Below, piece after piece: positions 35,645 through 38,768 of a DNA stretch of 52,997 bases. The position numbers were made by a program, and so were the translations under genes. Source of the stretch: Thermoplasmata archaeon (GTDB lineage Archaea; Thermoplasmatota; Thermoplasmata; Lutacidiplasmatales; UBA184); NCBI GenBank assembly GCA_030041175.1, contig JASHOK010000038.1, positions 1-52,997 of the forward strand. Reading direction: 5' to 3'. Within the stretch, counting starts at the first letter, position 1. Each line of letters opens with the position of its first letter. Below the pieces are notes generated by a model. It did not search any database and was not told the origin of the DNA. It saw only the letters and a program-made list of their open reading frames with translations.

Positions 35645-37185
35645 TCCGGGCGGCCGGTCAGACGGCCGCGGTCATCGAGGTAGAGGTCCCGGATGTCGTT
35701 GTACCCGAGCGAGACCAGGGCAAGACGCGTGATGCCGATGCCCCACGCCGCGACGGGCACTCCGATCCCCAGCGGTCGGAGCACCTCGGGCCGGAGCATG
35801 CCGCCGGGAAAGACCTCCATCCATCCGAGACGGGGATGGCGAACGTACCCTTCGATGGACGGTTCGGTGAACGGGAAGTAGCTGGGTCGGATCTTGAGTT
35901 CCGAAATTCCGAGGGCCTCGGCAAACGCCTTGAAGACACCGACCAGGTGACGGATCGTCACCCCCGTATCGCCGAGGATGCCCTCGCACTGGTCGAACTC
36001 GACGTGGTGCCGGGCGTCGAGGGCATCGGGCCGGAAGTTCCGGCCGATGCAGTACATCCGGAACGGCGGCTCGGGCTGGGTCGCCAGGAACCGTGCCGAA
36101 ACGGCCGTCGTCTGGGATCGGAGCACCGGCCGTCGGGCCCGATCCCGGGAATAGGGGGTCCGCCACCCCGGAGAGACTGGCAGGCGTTCCCCCGGCATCG
36201 GCCGCCCCTCGTGGGCCGCCGCCACTCGTTCGACGAGCTCCCCCGGCAGGGGAGCGCCGGGCGGCGAGTTGACGAAGAACATGTCGTGGACCGACCTCGC
36301 GGGGTGTTCCTGGGGCATGTTGAGAACGTCCGCGTTCCAGAACTCGGTCTCGAGGAGAGGTCCCTCCGCCTCCTGAAAGCCCAGCCCAACGAGGATGTCC
36401 TCCACTTCCTCGATCCAGGCGAGGTACGGATGCGGCCGAGCCCCCTGGAGATACGGTACCGTAGCTCGGACATCGTACGGTCGGAAGGAGACGTGGGCCC
36501 ACTCCTCCGACCCGAGCAGGGTGGGGGTGAGAGCGCCGACCAACGGCTGGCCGGCCTTGGGCAGCGGAAGGGCGAGGCCCTCGGGAGAGGGCAACCAGCG
36601 CCGGACCGAGTGTCGCTCCAGCAGGACCAGGCCCCGGCGCTGCAGCTGAGCCAGGACGCTCTCGTCGACCTCCTTGGCACCGGTCGCAACCGCCTGCAGG
36701 ACCTGCTCCTCGGGAAATGGACTGTCCACGTCGGGCCGGGGCTCCGCCCATCGGAACGGGACGCCCTCCGCCAGGAAGTGATGCCTGCGCAGATAGCCGA
36801 TCGCCGCCCCCTGCTCTTCGCCGGTGAGCCCTTCCGCCTCGACCTGGTCGGGAGTCAGGGTCCCACCCCGACGGCGTAGCGCGAACAGGAACCTGCGTTC
36901 CGGGAGCCCGCGCGCCCGGGCCTCCTCCCCGCGATGGGTAAGCTTGCGCTCGACCCACGCGTCTTCCGAAACGAGAACGAGGCCCTTGGAACGGAGCCGC
37001 TCCAGGCTTCCCCGGAGCGCGTCCGTTGGAAGTCCCGTCCGCTCGGCCAACGCGGAGTCCTCCTGCAGGACGTGCGGCGCGGCTCGCAAGGCCTCGAGAA
37101 CCACGCGCTCGGGTCCCGACAGCGAGAGCGCAGCGGAGGGGTCCGGCGGGGGCGGGTTCTCCTCGTCGGGCACGGCGGTTCCCAA
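35641..37185 (-). CDS. pheS: phenylalanyl-tRNA synthetase alpha subunit
   Basis: wHTH N-terminus; ARPHPYLAWIEEVEDILVGLGFQEAEGPLLETEFWNADVLNMPQEHPARSVHDMFFV, WGIGITRLALVSLGYNDIRDLY. Start is TTG at 37185 or GTG at 37173. Confidence 0.96.
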   Translation of the reverse strand: MGTAVPDEENPPPPDPSAALSLSGPERVVLEALRAAPHVLQEDSALAERTGLPTDALRGSLERLRSKGLVLVSEDAWVERKLTHRGEEARARGLPERRFLFALRRRGGTLTPDQVEAEGLTGEEQGAAIGYLRRHHFLAEGVPFRWAEPRPDVDSPFPEEQVLQAVATGAKEVDESVLAQLQRRGLVLLERHSVRRWLPSPEGLALPLPKAGQPLVGALTPTLLGSEEWAHVSFRPYDVRATVPYLQGARPHPYLAWIEEVEDILVGLGFQEAEGPLLETEFWNADVLNMPQEHPARSVHDMFFVNSPPGAPLPGELVERVAAAHEGRPMPGERLPVSPGWRTPYSRDRARRPVLRSQTTAVSARFLATQPEPPFRMYCIGRNFRPDALDARHHVEFDQCEGILGDTGVTIRHLVGVFKAFAEALGISELKIRPSYFPFTEPSIEGYVRHPRLGWMEVFPGGMLRPEVLRPLGIGVPVAAWGIGITRLALVSLGYNDIRDLYLDDRGRLTGRPE

Positions 37186-37220
37186 AGGGCGCCGTCTGTT
37201 AAGGGTTTGGAAATCGAGTG

Positions 37221-37236
37221 CTTTGGGATTTTATTC
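37221..37236 (+). repeat. left inverted repeat, block 1
   Basis: CTTTGGGATTTTATTC; 15/16 match to the reverse complement of 38600-38615. Confidence 0.8.
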
Positions 37237-37265
37237 GAGTTCCTCGAGGAGACCCGGTTCTCACC

Positions 37266-37276
37266 GTTCACCTTCC
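37266..37276 (+). repeat. left inverted repeat, block 2
   Basis: GTTCACCTTCC; 11/11 match to the reverse complement of 38584-38594. Confidence 0.7.
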
Positions 37277-37321
37277 ATCGGCGCCGTCAGTCGCTTCTAG
37301 CCCCACTCCGACTCATACCGG

Positions 37322-38605
37322 ATGCAGATCCTCCGGGGCCTCCTTCTTCCTCTCGCCTCTCCGCTCCCCGCTCCCCTCCTCGGCCTCATGGCTGACTATC
37401 GACTGCTGACCAACGCCACCCTTCGATACCTCCTCGAGACCGGCAAGACCTCCCGAGGGTCCGGGTCCAAGTTCGCCCGGAACTGGGCACTGGTCAACCA
37501 CATGACCGGCCAGCATGCGGTGGTGGCCGCGGAGATCGCCGTCTCACTCGCTCGAGCCCATCGAACCCGGCTTCGAAAGGGAATCCCCTCTGCGATCCCC
37601 TACGTTCGGAAACGATTCCTTCGGACCAGTCCGACGACCTTTCACTTCGATATCGACACCGGCAGGGTTCGAGTCTCCCTGCGGAGCGGAGAATGGTGTT
37701 CCTTCTTCGTTCACGTCGCTCCTTACCATCGGGAACGCCTCCAGGAACCTGGAGTTCGGATCAAGCAACTCCAGGTGTCGGAGGACCGGGTAGCCCTGTT
37801 CCTTGAACGACAGGTTCCAGAACCCTACCCTCCATCGTCCCTGGTCGCCCTCGACACCAACGAACGGTCGATGGACGGGGTAGTCGTCACTTCCTCCGGT
37901 ACCGAGGCTACTCGGGTCGAGTACTCGGACATCCCGCAGATCCAGACCGTGCACTTCCTACGGAGGCGACGCCTCGCCCGGAAGAAGGCCCACGACCGAC
38001 GGGTGGCTCGTCGACTGCTACGCAAGGAAGGGACTCGGGAACGCCACCGGGTTCGGTCTCGTCTACACGTCCTGAGCCGACGGTTCATCGAGATCCTGGA
38101 ACGACACCATGCCGCTCTTGCCCTCGAGGACCTGTCTCGAGTGCCTTCACCACGACGACGAGGTCCCGGAGCTAGGGGTCGGTGGCGGGGACCCCAGCTC
38201 CGCCGTCGGCTCTCGAGCTGGCCTCGTCGGGAGTTGCATCGCCAGCTGGAATACAAGGCCCAGGACCATGGCGTTCCGATCTACTGGGTCAACCCGTATC
38301 GTACCAGCATGACCTGCCCGAGATGTGGGGATATTCGACGACCCCGAAGCAGGGTAGGGCCGATGTTCACGTGCGAGTCGTGTGGCTGGACGCTGGACCG
38401 GCAACTGAATGCCGGAGTGAATGTCGGACGAACCGCTCTGCGAGATATCGCAGAGCTCGAAGGTCTACGACTGGACCTTGACGGCCTTTCCGAGGATGCG
38501 AGGAGGCCCCGCTACCCCTTCGAAGCGTCGACGGGGCACGGGCGGAGCGGAGGGAAAGGAAGGGAGCGAACGCAGGGGGCATCGGAAGGTGAACCCTGTG
38601 AATAG
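37322..38605 (+). CDS. tnpB: TnpB/IS1341-family RNA-guided nuclease-like protein
   Basis: LVALDTNERSMDGV (RuvC-I), ALALEDLSRV (RuvC-II), zinc ribbon CPRCG...CESCG, WTLDRQLNAGVNVGR (RuvC-III region). Confidence 0.92.
   Translation: MQILRGLLLPLASPLPAPLLGLMADYRLLTNATLRYLLETGKTSRGSGSKFARNWALVNHMTGQHAVVAAEIAVSLARAHRTRLRKGIPSAIPYVRKRFLRTSPTTFHFDIDTGRVRVSLRSGEWCSFFVHVAPYHRERLQEPGVRIKQLQVSEDRVALFLERQVPEPYPPSSLVALDTNERSMDGVVVTSSGTEATRVEYSDIPQIQTVHFLRRRRLARKKAHDRRVARRLLRKEGTRERHRVRSRLHVLSRRFIEILERHHAALALEDLSRVPSPRRRGPGARGRWRGPQLRRRLSSWPRRELHRQLEYKAQDHGVPIYWVNPYRTSMTCPRCGDIRRPRSRVGPMFTCESCGWTLDRQLNAGVNVGRTALRDIAELEGLRLDLDGLSEDARRPRYPFEASTGHGRSGGKGRERTQGASEGEPCE
38584..38594 (-). repeat. right inverted repeat, block 2
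   Basis: GGAAGGTGAAC, reverse complement of 37266-37276; lies in the 3' end of tnpB. Confidence 0.7.
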
Positions 38606-38615
38606 AATCCCAAAG
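38600..38615 (-). repeat. right inverted repeat, block 1
   Basis: GAATAGAATCCCAAAG; overlaps the tnpB stop codon (TAG at 38603-38605). Confidence 0.8.
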
Positions 38616-38768
38616 CCGCTCAAATCCCTCCCGCGACGCTCGCGATTGCCTACGCACACACCGGAGATGCGGAGGCCCGTTCGCGCGGCCCGCCGGCCGA
38701 CGGCGGAAGGGTCCAGGCACGCACCCAACAGTCGACTTCCGCTCGTCACAGGTCGCGGTCGGCCCGGT

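Follow-up and report, generated by a model that had tools for sequence, protein, structure and literature searches.

A tnpB gene of Thermoplasmata archaea within an inverted-repeat element that is probably moved in trans by a DDE transposase

We analyzed a window of 52,997 nucleotides from a Thermoplasmata archaeon (assembly GCA_030041175.1, contig JASHOK010000038.1), in which a tnpB gene is the sole gene of a 1,399-bp element with inverted repeats at both ends (positions 37219 to 38617). Our data make it probable that this element is a nonautonomous DDE-type unit, moved in trans and carrying a TnpB-omegaRNA module, and that it is convergent with the Fanzor transposons. An initial annotation, made from the letters of this stretch, had suggested a unit resembling a miniature inverted-repeat transposable element (MITE) that a DDE transposase moves in trans. 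DDE-like ends and duplications, an IS5-like gene with the same end in the same genome, and copies free of cargo all speak for that suggestion. The window corresponds to contig C81 of a metagenome-assembled genome (MAG), a 1.79-Mb draft here called G000. Its close relatives in the compared collection are Thermoplasmata archaeon MAGs, and the genomes compared are incomplete draft assemblies.

Element ends, copies, and target-site duplications

The following features define the ends of the element.
37219..37236, plus strand: left terminal inverted repeat TGCTTTGGGATTTTATTC, from repeat comparison and copy boundaries
38600..38617, plus strand: right terminal inverted repeat GAATAGAATCCCAAAGCC, from repeat comparison and copy boundaries
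37266..37276, plus strand: inner inverted repeat, left arm GTTCACCTTCC, lineage-specific
38584..38594, plus strand: inner inverted repeat, right arm GGAAGGTGAAC, inside hairpin 2 of the predicted omega-RNA

The outer pair of repeats reported in the initial annotation is real and can be widened to 17 nucleotides, GCTTTGGGATTTTATTC (37220 to 37236) and GAATAGAATCCCAAAGC (38600 to 38616), of which 16 are complementary; none of 300 shuffles gave such a match between the two end regions. When the genome of origin was searched with the element region, two more full copies were recovered, as well as three partial ones cut by contig ends. The full copies match the window from 37219 to 38617, which are the outer repeat edges, give or take a few chance bases in the BLAST alignments, and all ends visible in the partial copies agree with these two positions. 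Since the matches stop at the repeat edges, the repeats are the true element ends and not a coincidence. The idea of a bracketed unit was therefore sound, while its exact ends had to be refined to 37219 and 38617. The left end starts with T-GCTTTGGG and the right end, read on the complement, with G-GCTTTGGG. As had also been pointed out, the right terminal repeat overlaps the end of the gene, with the tnpB stop codon at 38603 to 38605 lying inside it. The inner pair fared less well: its 11/11 complementarity exceeds chance in the window copy and the relatives nearest to it (0 to 1 of 100 shuffles) but is absent in more distant members, and this lineage specificity rules it out as a general transposase site.

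The copy on contig C9 of the same genome carries CTACGCGTG on both flanks, and a 9-bp duplication accompanies one tnpB insertion in each of 11 other genomes; among these 12 duplications, seven match at 9/9 positions and five at 8/9. Element ends placed back to back and exactly 9 bp apart occur on contig C5 of the window's genome and in G029, and the fixed 9-bp duplication is seen in tnpB, MITE, and other-gene elements. On C5 (positions 1621 to 1665) the paired ends and their 9-bp gap look as if a second element had hit the same target. For other copies, CCGGGAGGC is both the left flank of the one on C90 and the right flank of the one on C14, whose own left flank equals the right flank of the copy on C73 with one mismatch. 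Because these flanks match between different copies, the contigs have been joined from one copy to another, either in assembly or through real recombination.

A target-site duplication, which the initial annotation had named as a check, is absent from the flanks of the window copy, unlike those of its sister copies and of the relatives. On its left, this copy is flanked by the region upstream of pheS. The sequence that directly follows pheS in four congeners is the one that opens contig C4 of the window's own MAG, and C4 therefore holds the empty site, GTTAAGGGTTTG-GAAAACGAG-GACTCAGG. Past 38617, the window continues with sequence that originates elsewhere, with C4 and the congeners showing a different right neighbor; the junction 38617/38618 is either a misassembly at the repeat or the product of recombination between copies. 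Thus, the window copy shows no duplication because the right flank now next to it is not the one that it originally had. The search for empty sites, other copies, and tnpB-less derivatives that had likewise been proposed has turned up all three.

A candidate transposase partner and its target rule

On contig C55 of the window's genome, an open frame that runs from the contig end to position 1378 encodes a SWIM zinc finger and a DDE_Tnp_1 domain, and it is directly followed by GAATAAAATCCCAAAGT, which is the right end of the tnpB element with one change. A related SWIM-DDE fragment occupies the same chromosomal place on contig C77 of G003 and has the end GAATAAAATCCCAAAGC, and contig C141 of G014 is a complete insertion sequence (IS) of 1,744 bp, with GGCTTTGGGAT at both ends and a SWIM-DDE frame of 535 codons. 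In other genomes, a GGCTTTG end lies downstream in 15 of 29 SWIM-DDE loci, mostly 63 to 157 bp past the matched region and with a varied continuation. The protein is closest to IS5-family models (NF033579 IS5), with a score below the IS5 cutoff; in the IS903 group of that family, ends start with GGCTTTG and the duplication is 9 bp long. We infer from these sequence relationships that the SWIM-DDE protein may be the mobilizer of the tnpB element. The insertion upstream of a ribbon-helix-helix gene is seemingly common to C55 and C77, with a 9-bp target and a TATA-like motif on its right side, and may predate the split of the two congeneric genomes.

Elements with the same ends and duplications also occur free of cargo, with lengths of 107 bp in G004 and 50 bp in G256, and a 335-bp deletion derivative of a tnpB element in G064, which has a second end type, retains both ends and duplication. 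The initial annotation had regarded repeats that persist without tnpB at unrelated places as evidence against its proposal. Such repeats were indeed found, but they are mobile elements with duplications, and trans-mobilization is thereby supported. The other finding that it had held to speak against the unit, namely, true ends in the form of IS605-like hairpins, did not materialize: the ends are inverted repeats, and for the copies in the window's genome IS605-type ends are ruled out by the exact boundaries, the duplications, and the lack of a Y1 TnpA match. The stated absence of tnpA agrees with our profile search for Y1 (HUH) TnpA (PF01797), which gave no match in the window's genome or in seven element-carrying relatives of family f1, all of them drafts. 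No serine recombinase is present within the element, and no genome-wide search for one was made. Separately, two tandem units in G005 (contig C2, approximately 510100 to 512650), comprising an SRPBCC-like gene and a gene for a membrane or secreted protein (both named by eye), have the same type of ends and are surrounded by three copies of CCGCAAATA; it seems that ordinary genes are moved by the system, too.

TnpB relatives were detected in 47 of 400 genomes of the class (E ≤ 1e-45). One tnpB group has GGCTTTG ends; ends of the GGTTCTGT type are found in a more distant group (38 to 42% identity) and in one f1 lineage. Elements of the latter type show 9-bp duplications (8/9) where both flanks are readable, with a TATA-like motif on the left; a partner transposase for these ends was not found among the DDE_Tnp_1 loci of G041 and G169. 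We observed the second end type, GGTTCTGTnnn...CGGGTGGTG, on tnpB elements of families f5 and f25 (G064, G041, and G169).

Insertion follows a rule that concerns the left side of the target, for which the window has the following features.
37198..37203, no strand assigned: TATA-like motif GTTAAG (archaeal), 6 bp before the target 9-mer and with its TA in the -11/-10 region, probably the pheS promoter pointing away from the element
37210..37218, no strand assigned: target 9-mer GAAATCGAG, left duplication copy, from the empty site on C4 and the contiguous site in congeners, the right copy not being in this contig

In 15 of 20 insertions, TA precedes the duplication at positions -10/-9, against a background of 1.5% (binomial P = 6e-24, with insertions of related elements not fully independent), and A/T occupies both -11 and -10 in all 20; the mirrored position on the right flank shows nothing (0/11). 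The motif upstream of pheS is conserved in four congeners, and the window motif would fit a leaderless pheS promoter (GTG at 37173). Host genes point away from the element, and their starts typically lie 50 to 86 nucleotides to its left. As SWIM-DDE and cargo-free elements keep the same spacing to the TATA-like motif, the target rule is likely a property of the transposase, which may recognize promoter DNA or factors bound there. The shared spacing also rules out this motif as the transposon-associated motif (TAM) of TnpB, and capture of a host promoter to drive tnpB is ruled out by the host genes, pheS in the window, pointing away from the motif. In tnpB elements of f1 genomes, the promoter-facing end mostly starts with T and the opposite end with G, and the T end of the 50-bp element of G256 likewise faces the TATA-like motif; an end-specific orientation rule for T and G ends is possible.

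The TnpB protein and the predicted right-end RNA

The coding region and the RNA features predicted at its 3' end are as follows.
37322..38605, plus strand: tnpB, 427 amino acids, TnpB/Cas12f fold, RuvC-I D178, RuvC-II E269, RuvC-III D359-R-Q361, from profiles, structure model, and alignment
38508..38617, plus strand: predicted 3' portion of the omega-RNA, which shares its sequence with the tnpB 3' end and the right terminal repeat and would be followed by the guide; from covariation (alignment A2) and synonymous divergence
38515..38536, plus strand: omega-RNA hairpin 1, arms 38515-38523 and 38528-38536, with compensatory changes among relatives in 6 of 9 pairs
38571..38600, plus strand: predicted terminal hairpin 2 of the omega-RNA, arms 38571-38577 and 38594-38600, z = -5.3 for the window copy (mononucleotide shuffles)

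The protein matches the TnpB profile PF07282 (E value 8.8e-18) and NF040570 (E value 4.1e-27; 95.5 bits, just below the cutoff of 100), and Foldseek matches of its AlphaFold2 model (pLDDT 83.7) are Cas12f and TnpB structures. RuvC-I reads LDTNE, the RuvC-II Glu lies in an LEDL motif well ahead of the zinc finger, and both acids are invariant among 35 sequences. RuvC-III reads D-R-[Q/H]-x-N-A, whose Asp, four residues before the Asn, is invariant in the same 35. With dN/dS values of 0.11 to 0.24, tnpB is under strong purifying selection.

Covariation was assessed in the last 110 nucleotides of 11 elements; on none of five measures did any of 500 shuffles reach the observed value, and all slid controls were lower. 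In the predicted fold, the right terminal repeat contributes TCCC and CC, which pair with GGGA and GG segments, TCCC at 38608 to 38611 pairing with the upstream GGGA. These repeat-containing helices hardly vary among the elements, so that covariation supports hairpin 1 and not those pairings. The terminal hairpin is predicted in several copies, with z scores down to -5.3. When the window copy is compared with G004, synonymous divergence is 0.417 in the core of the gene but 0.057 in its last 47 codons, as would be expected if an RNA overlaps the gene. Covariation and structure prediction together suggest that the right-end RNA is an omega-RNA and that the terminal repeat doubles as its end. The initial annotation had considered an end architecture that also forms the omega-RNA, and the covarying hairpin and the predicted pairing of the right repeat are in keeping with it.

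These observations allow us to propose a model. A SWIM-DDE, IS5-like transposase made elsewhere in the genome would cut at the repeats and insert the unit just upstream of archaeal promoters. tnpB and the right-end RNA would be transcribed together, the terminal repeat would be paired into the RNA scaffold, and the guide would come from the flanking sequence past the right end, with its start either at the duplication or after it. Like Fanzor1, the system would place the fixed repeat, and perhaps also the duplication, in the scaffold and leave only the variable flank to act as the guide. The TnpB complex could then cut the unoccupied allele, such that the element is kept or copied back.

Alternative explanations and relation to known systems

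Several results weigh against a DDE-type element that carries an active TnpB-omegaRNA module. The only complete IS with both ends, on C141 of G014, is on a contig without flanks; the left ends of other SWIM-DDE copies were searched for and not located, and the copy in the window's genome is cut by the contig end. An automated search for complete flanked SWIM-DDE ISs yielded only noise, and a motif search then located right ends. G004, G211, G283, and the 10-contig assembly G064 all have tnpB elements, but in none of them was a DDE_Tnp_1 transposase detected. No conserved TAM was seen directly beside the element or the duplication. The canonical RuvC-III Asp, two residues before the Asn of NA, is the catalytic residue in Cas12f1; Gln or His takes its place in 35/35 sequences.

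This last substitution would be in line with TnpB as a nuclease-dead guided binder, similar to TldR, that occupies its targets and leaves them uncut, or as an inert passenger of a DDE element, of no use to it, and the adjacency of insertions to promoters would suit such a role, too. We regard this as unlikely, since a dead enzyme does not need an invariant RuvC-I Asp, RuvC-II Glu, and neighboring RuvC-III Asp, the low dN/dS argues against an inert passenger, and the elements are mobile rather than domesticated. From the alignment, the third catalytic acid may instead have moved from the canonical position to D359. The same relocated acid could be taken further: TnpB itself might be the transposase, its altered RuvC site recognizing the repeats and making the 9-bp duplications with no DDE partner. 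Genomes with tnpB elements and no detectable DDE_Tnp_1 gene are in line with this, as are the invariance of two acids and the shifted third in the altered site and the sorting of both end types with the tnpB phylogeny in one change; a single change, however, means that the tree test does not separate a cargo from a self-mobilizing model. A DDE IS with near-identical ends in the same genome, cargo-free elements with those ends, and an RNA structure and fold that are those of a guided nuclease make a TnpB transposase highly improbable, and the genomes without a DDE match are incomplete drafts. An active role, in which TnpB-omegaRNA with its relocated RuvC-III acid acts in DDE-type transposition, as a strand transferase or as a guide of the DDE transposase resembling that of CRISPR-associated transposons (CAST), also seems to us quite improbable. 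Ordinary solo tnpB elements of the IS200/IS605 (IS1341) type, lying between unrelated inverted repeats, deserve mention because they are common and because the right end has hairpins. Yet the copy boundaries coincide with the repeats, duplications are present, Y1 TnpA was not found in the genome, and the tnpB-less repeats are themselves mobile, which leaves this explanation next to no credence.

The preferred reading, a TnpB-omegaRNA module on a DDE-type element moved in trans, touches on several known systems. TldR proteins are nuclease-dead TnpB repressors and share the loss of the canonical RuvC acid, but the elements described here are mobile and multicopy, and their other catalytic acids are invariant. 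With the IS903 group of IS5 they have in common GGCTTTG ends, the 9-bp duplication, and a transposase closest to NF033579; they differ from that group in that a SWIM zinc finger is present at the N terminus of the transposase, whose score stays below the IS5 cutoff, and in that no transposase is carried by the tnpB units. The TnpB fold and a right-end RNA overlapping the tnpB 3' end are shared with IS200/IS605, IS607, and solo IS1341-type elements. Inverted repeats and 9-bp duplications, together with the lack of a Y1 TnpA match in the window's genome, set the element apart from IS200/IS605 and IS607; these and solo-tnpB elements have neither terminal inverted repeats nor duplications (PMC3627910), in agreement with what the initial annotation had stated about IS200/IS605 and IS607 ends.

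Our literature search, whose coverage is incomplete, found no prokaryotic TnpB in a DDE element; in the papers that it covered, such an arrangement is described for eukaryotes and their viruses only. Apparently, a TnpB family in Thermoplasmata archaea left its usual vehicle, and its guide RNA was built into the end of the new one. If true, an independent prokaryotic move would show that guided nucleases change vehicles and remodel their guide RNA to suit the end of a new element, and it would provide a simple setting for testing cooperation between a guided nuclease and a cut-and-paste transposase. Two more points open to testing are the uniformly altered RuvC-III site and the link of the target rule to promoters.

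The closest parallel is with Fanzor1 and Fanzor2* of eukaryotes and viruses, which also place a TnpB-family nuclease in DDE-type elements with repeats and duplications (PMC3627910, PMC10711439). Fanzor1 is found in eukaryotic DDE elements, some of which share their ends with transposase-bearing members, IS4-type elements that have 18-bp repeats and 8-bp duplications among them (PMC3627910), and its guide RNA scaffold takes in the repeat and the duplication (PMC10711439). A right-end guide RNA with the repeat in its scaffold, here predicted, and nuclease-only elements that share ends with transposase-bearing ones are thus features of both systems. Fanzor proteins are recognized by a DPG motif in RuvC-I and a relocated RuvC-II Glu (PMC10711439). 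Unlike them, the present nuclease has an archaeal host, D-T-N-E in place of DPG, and a canonical RuvC-II Glu, the change being in RuvC-III; its element has ends of the IS5-like SWIM-DDE type, and its insertion is linked to promoters.
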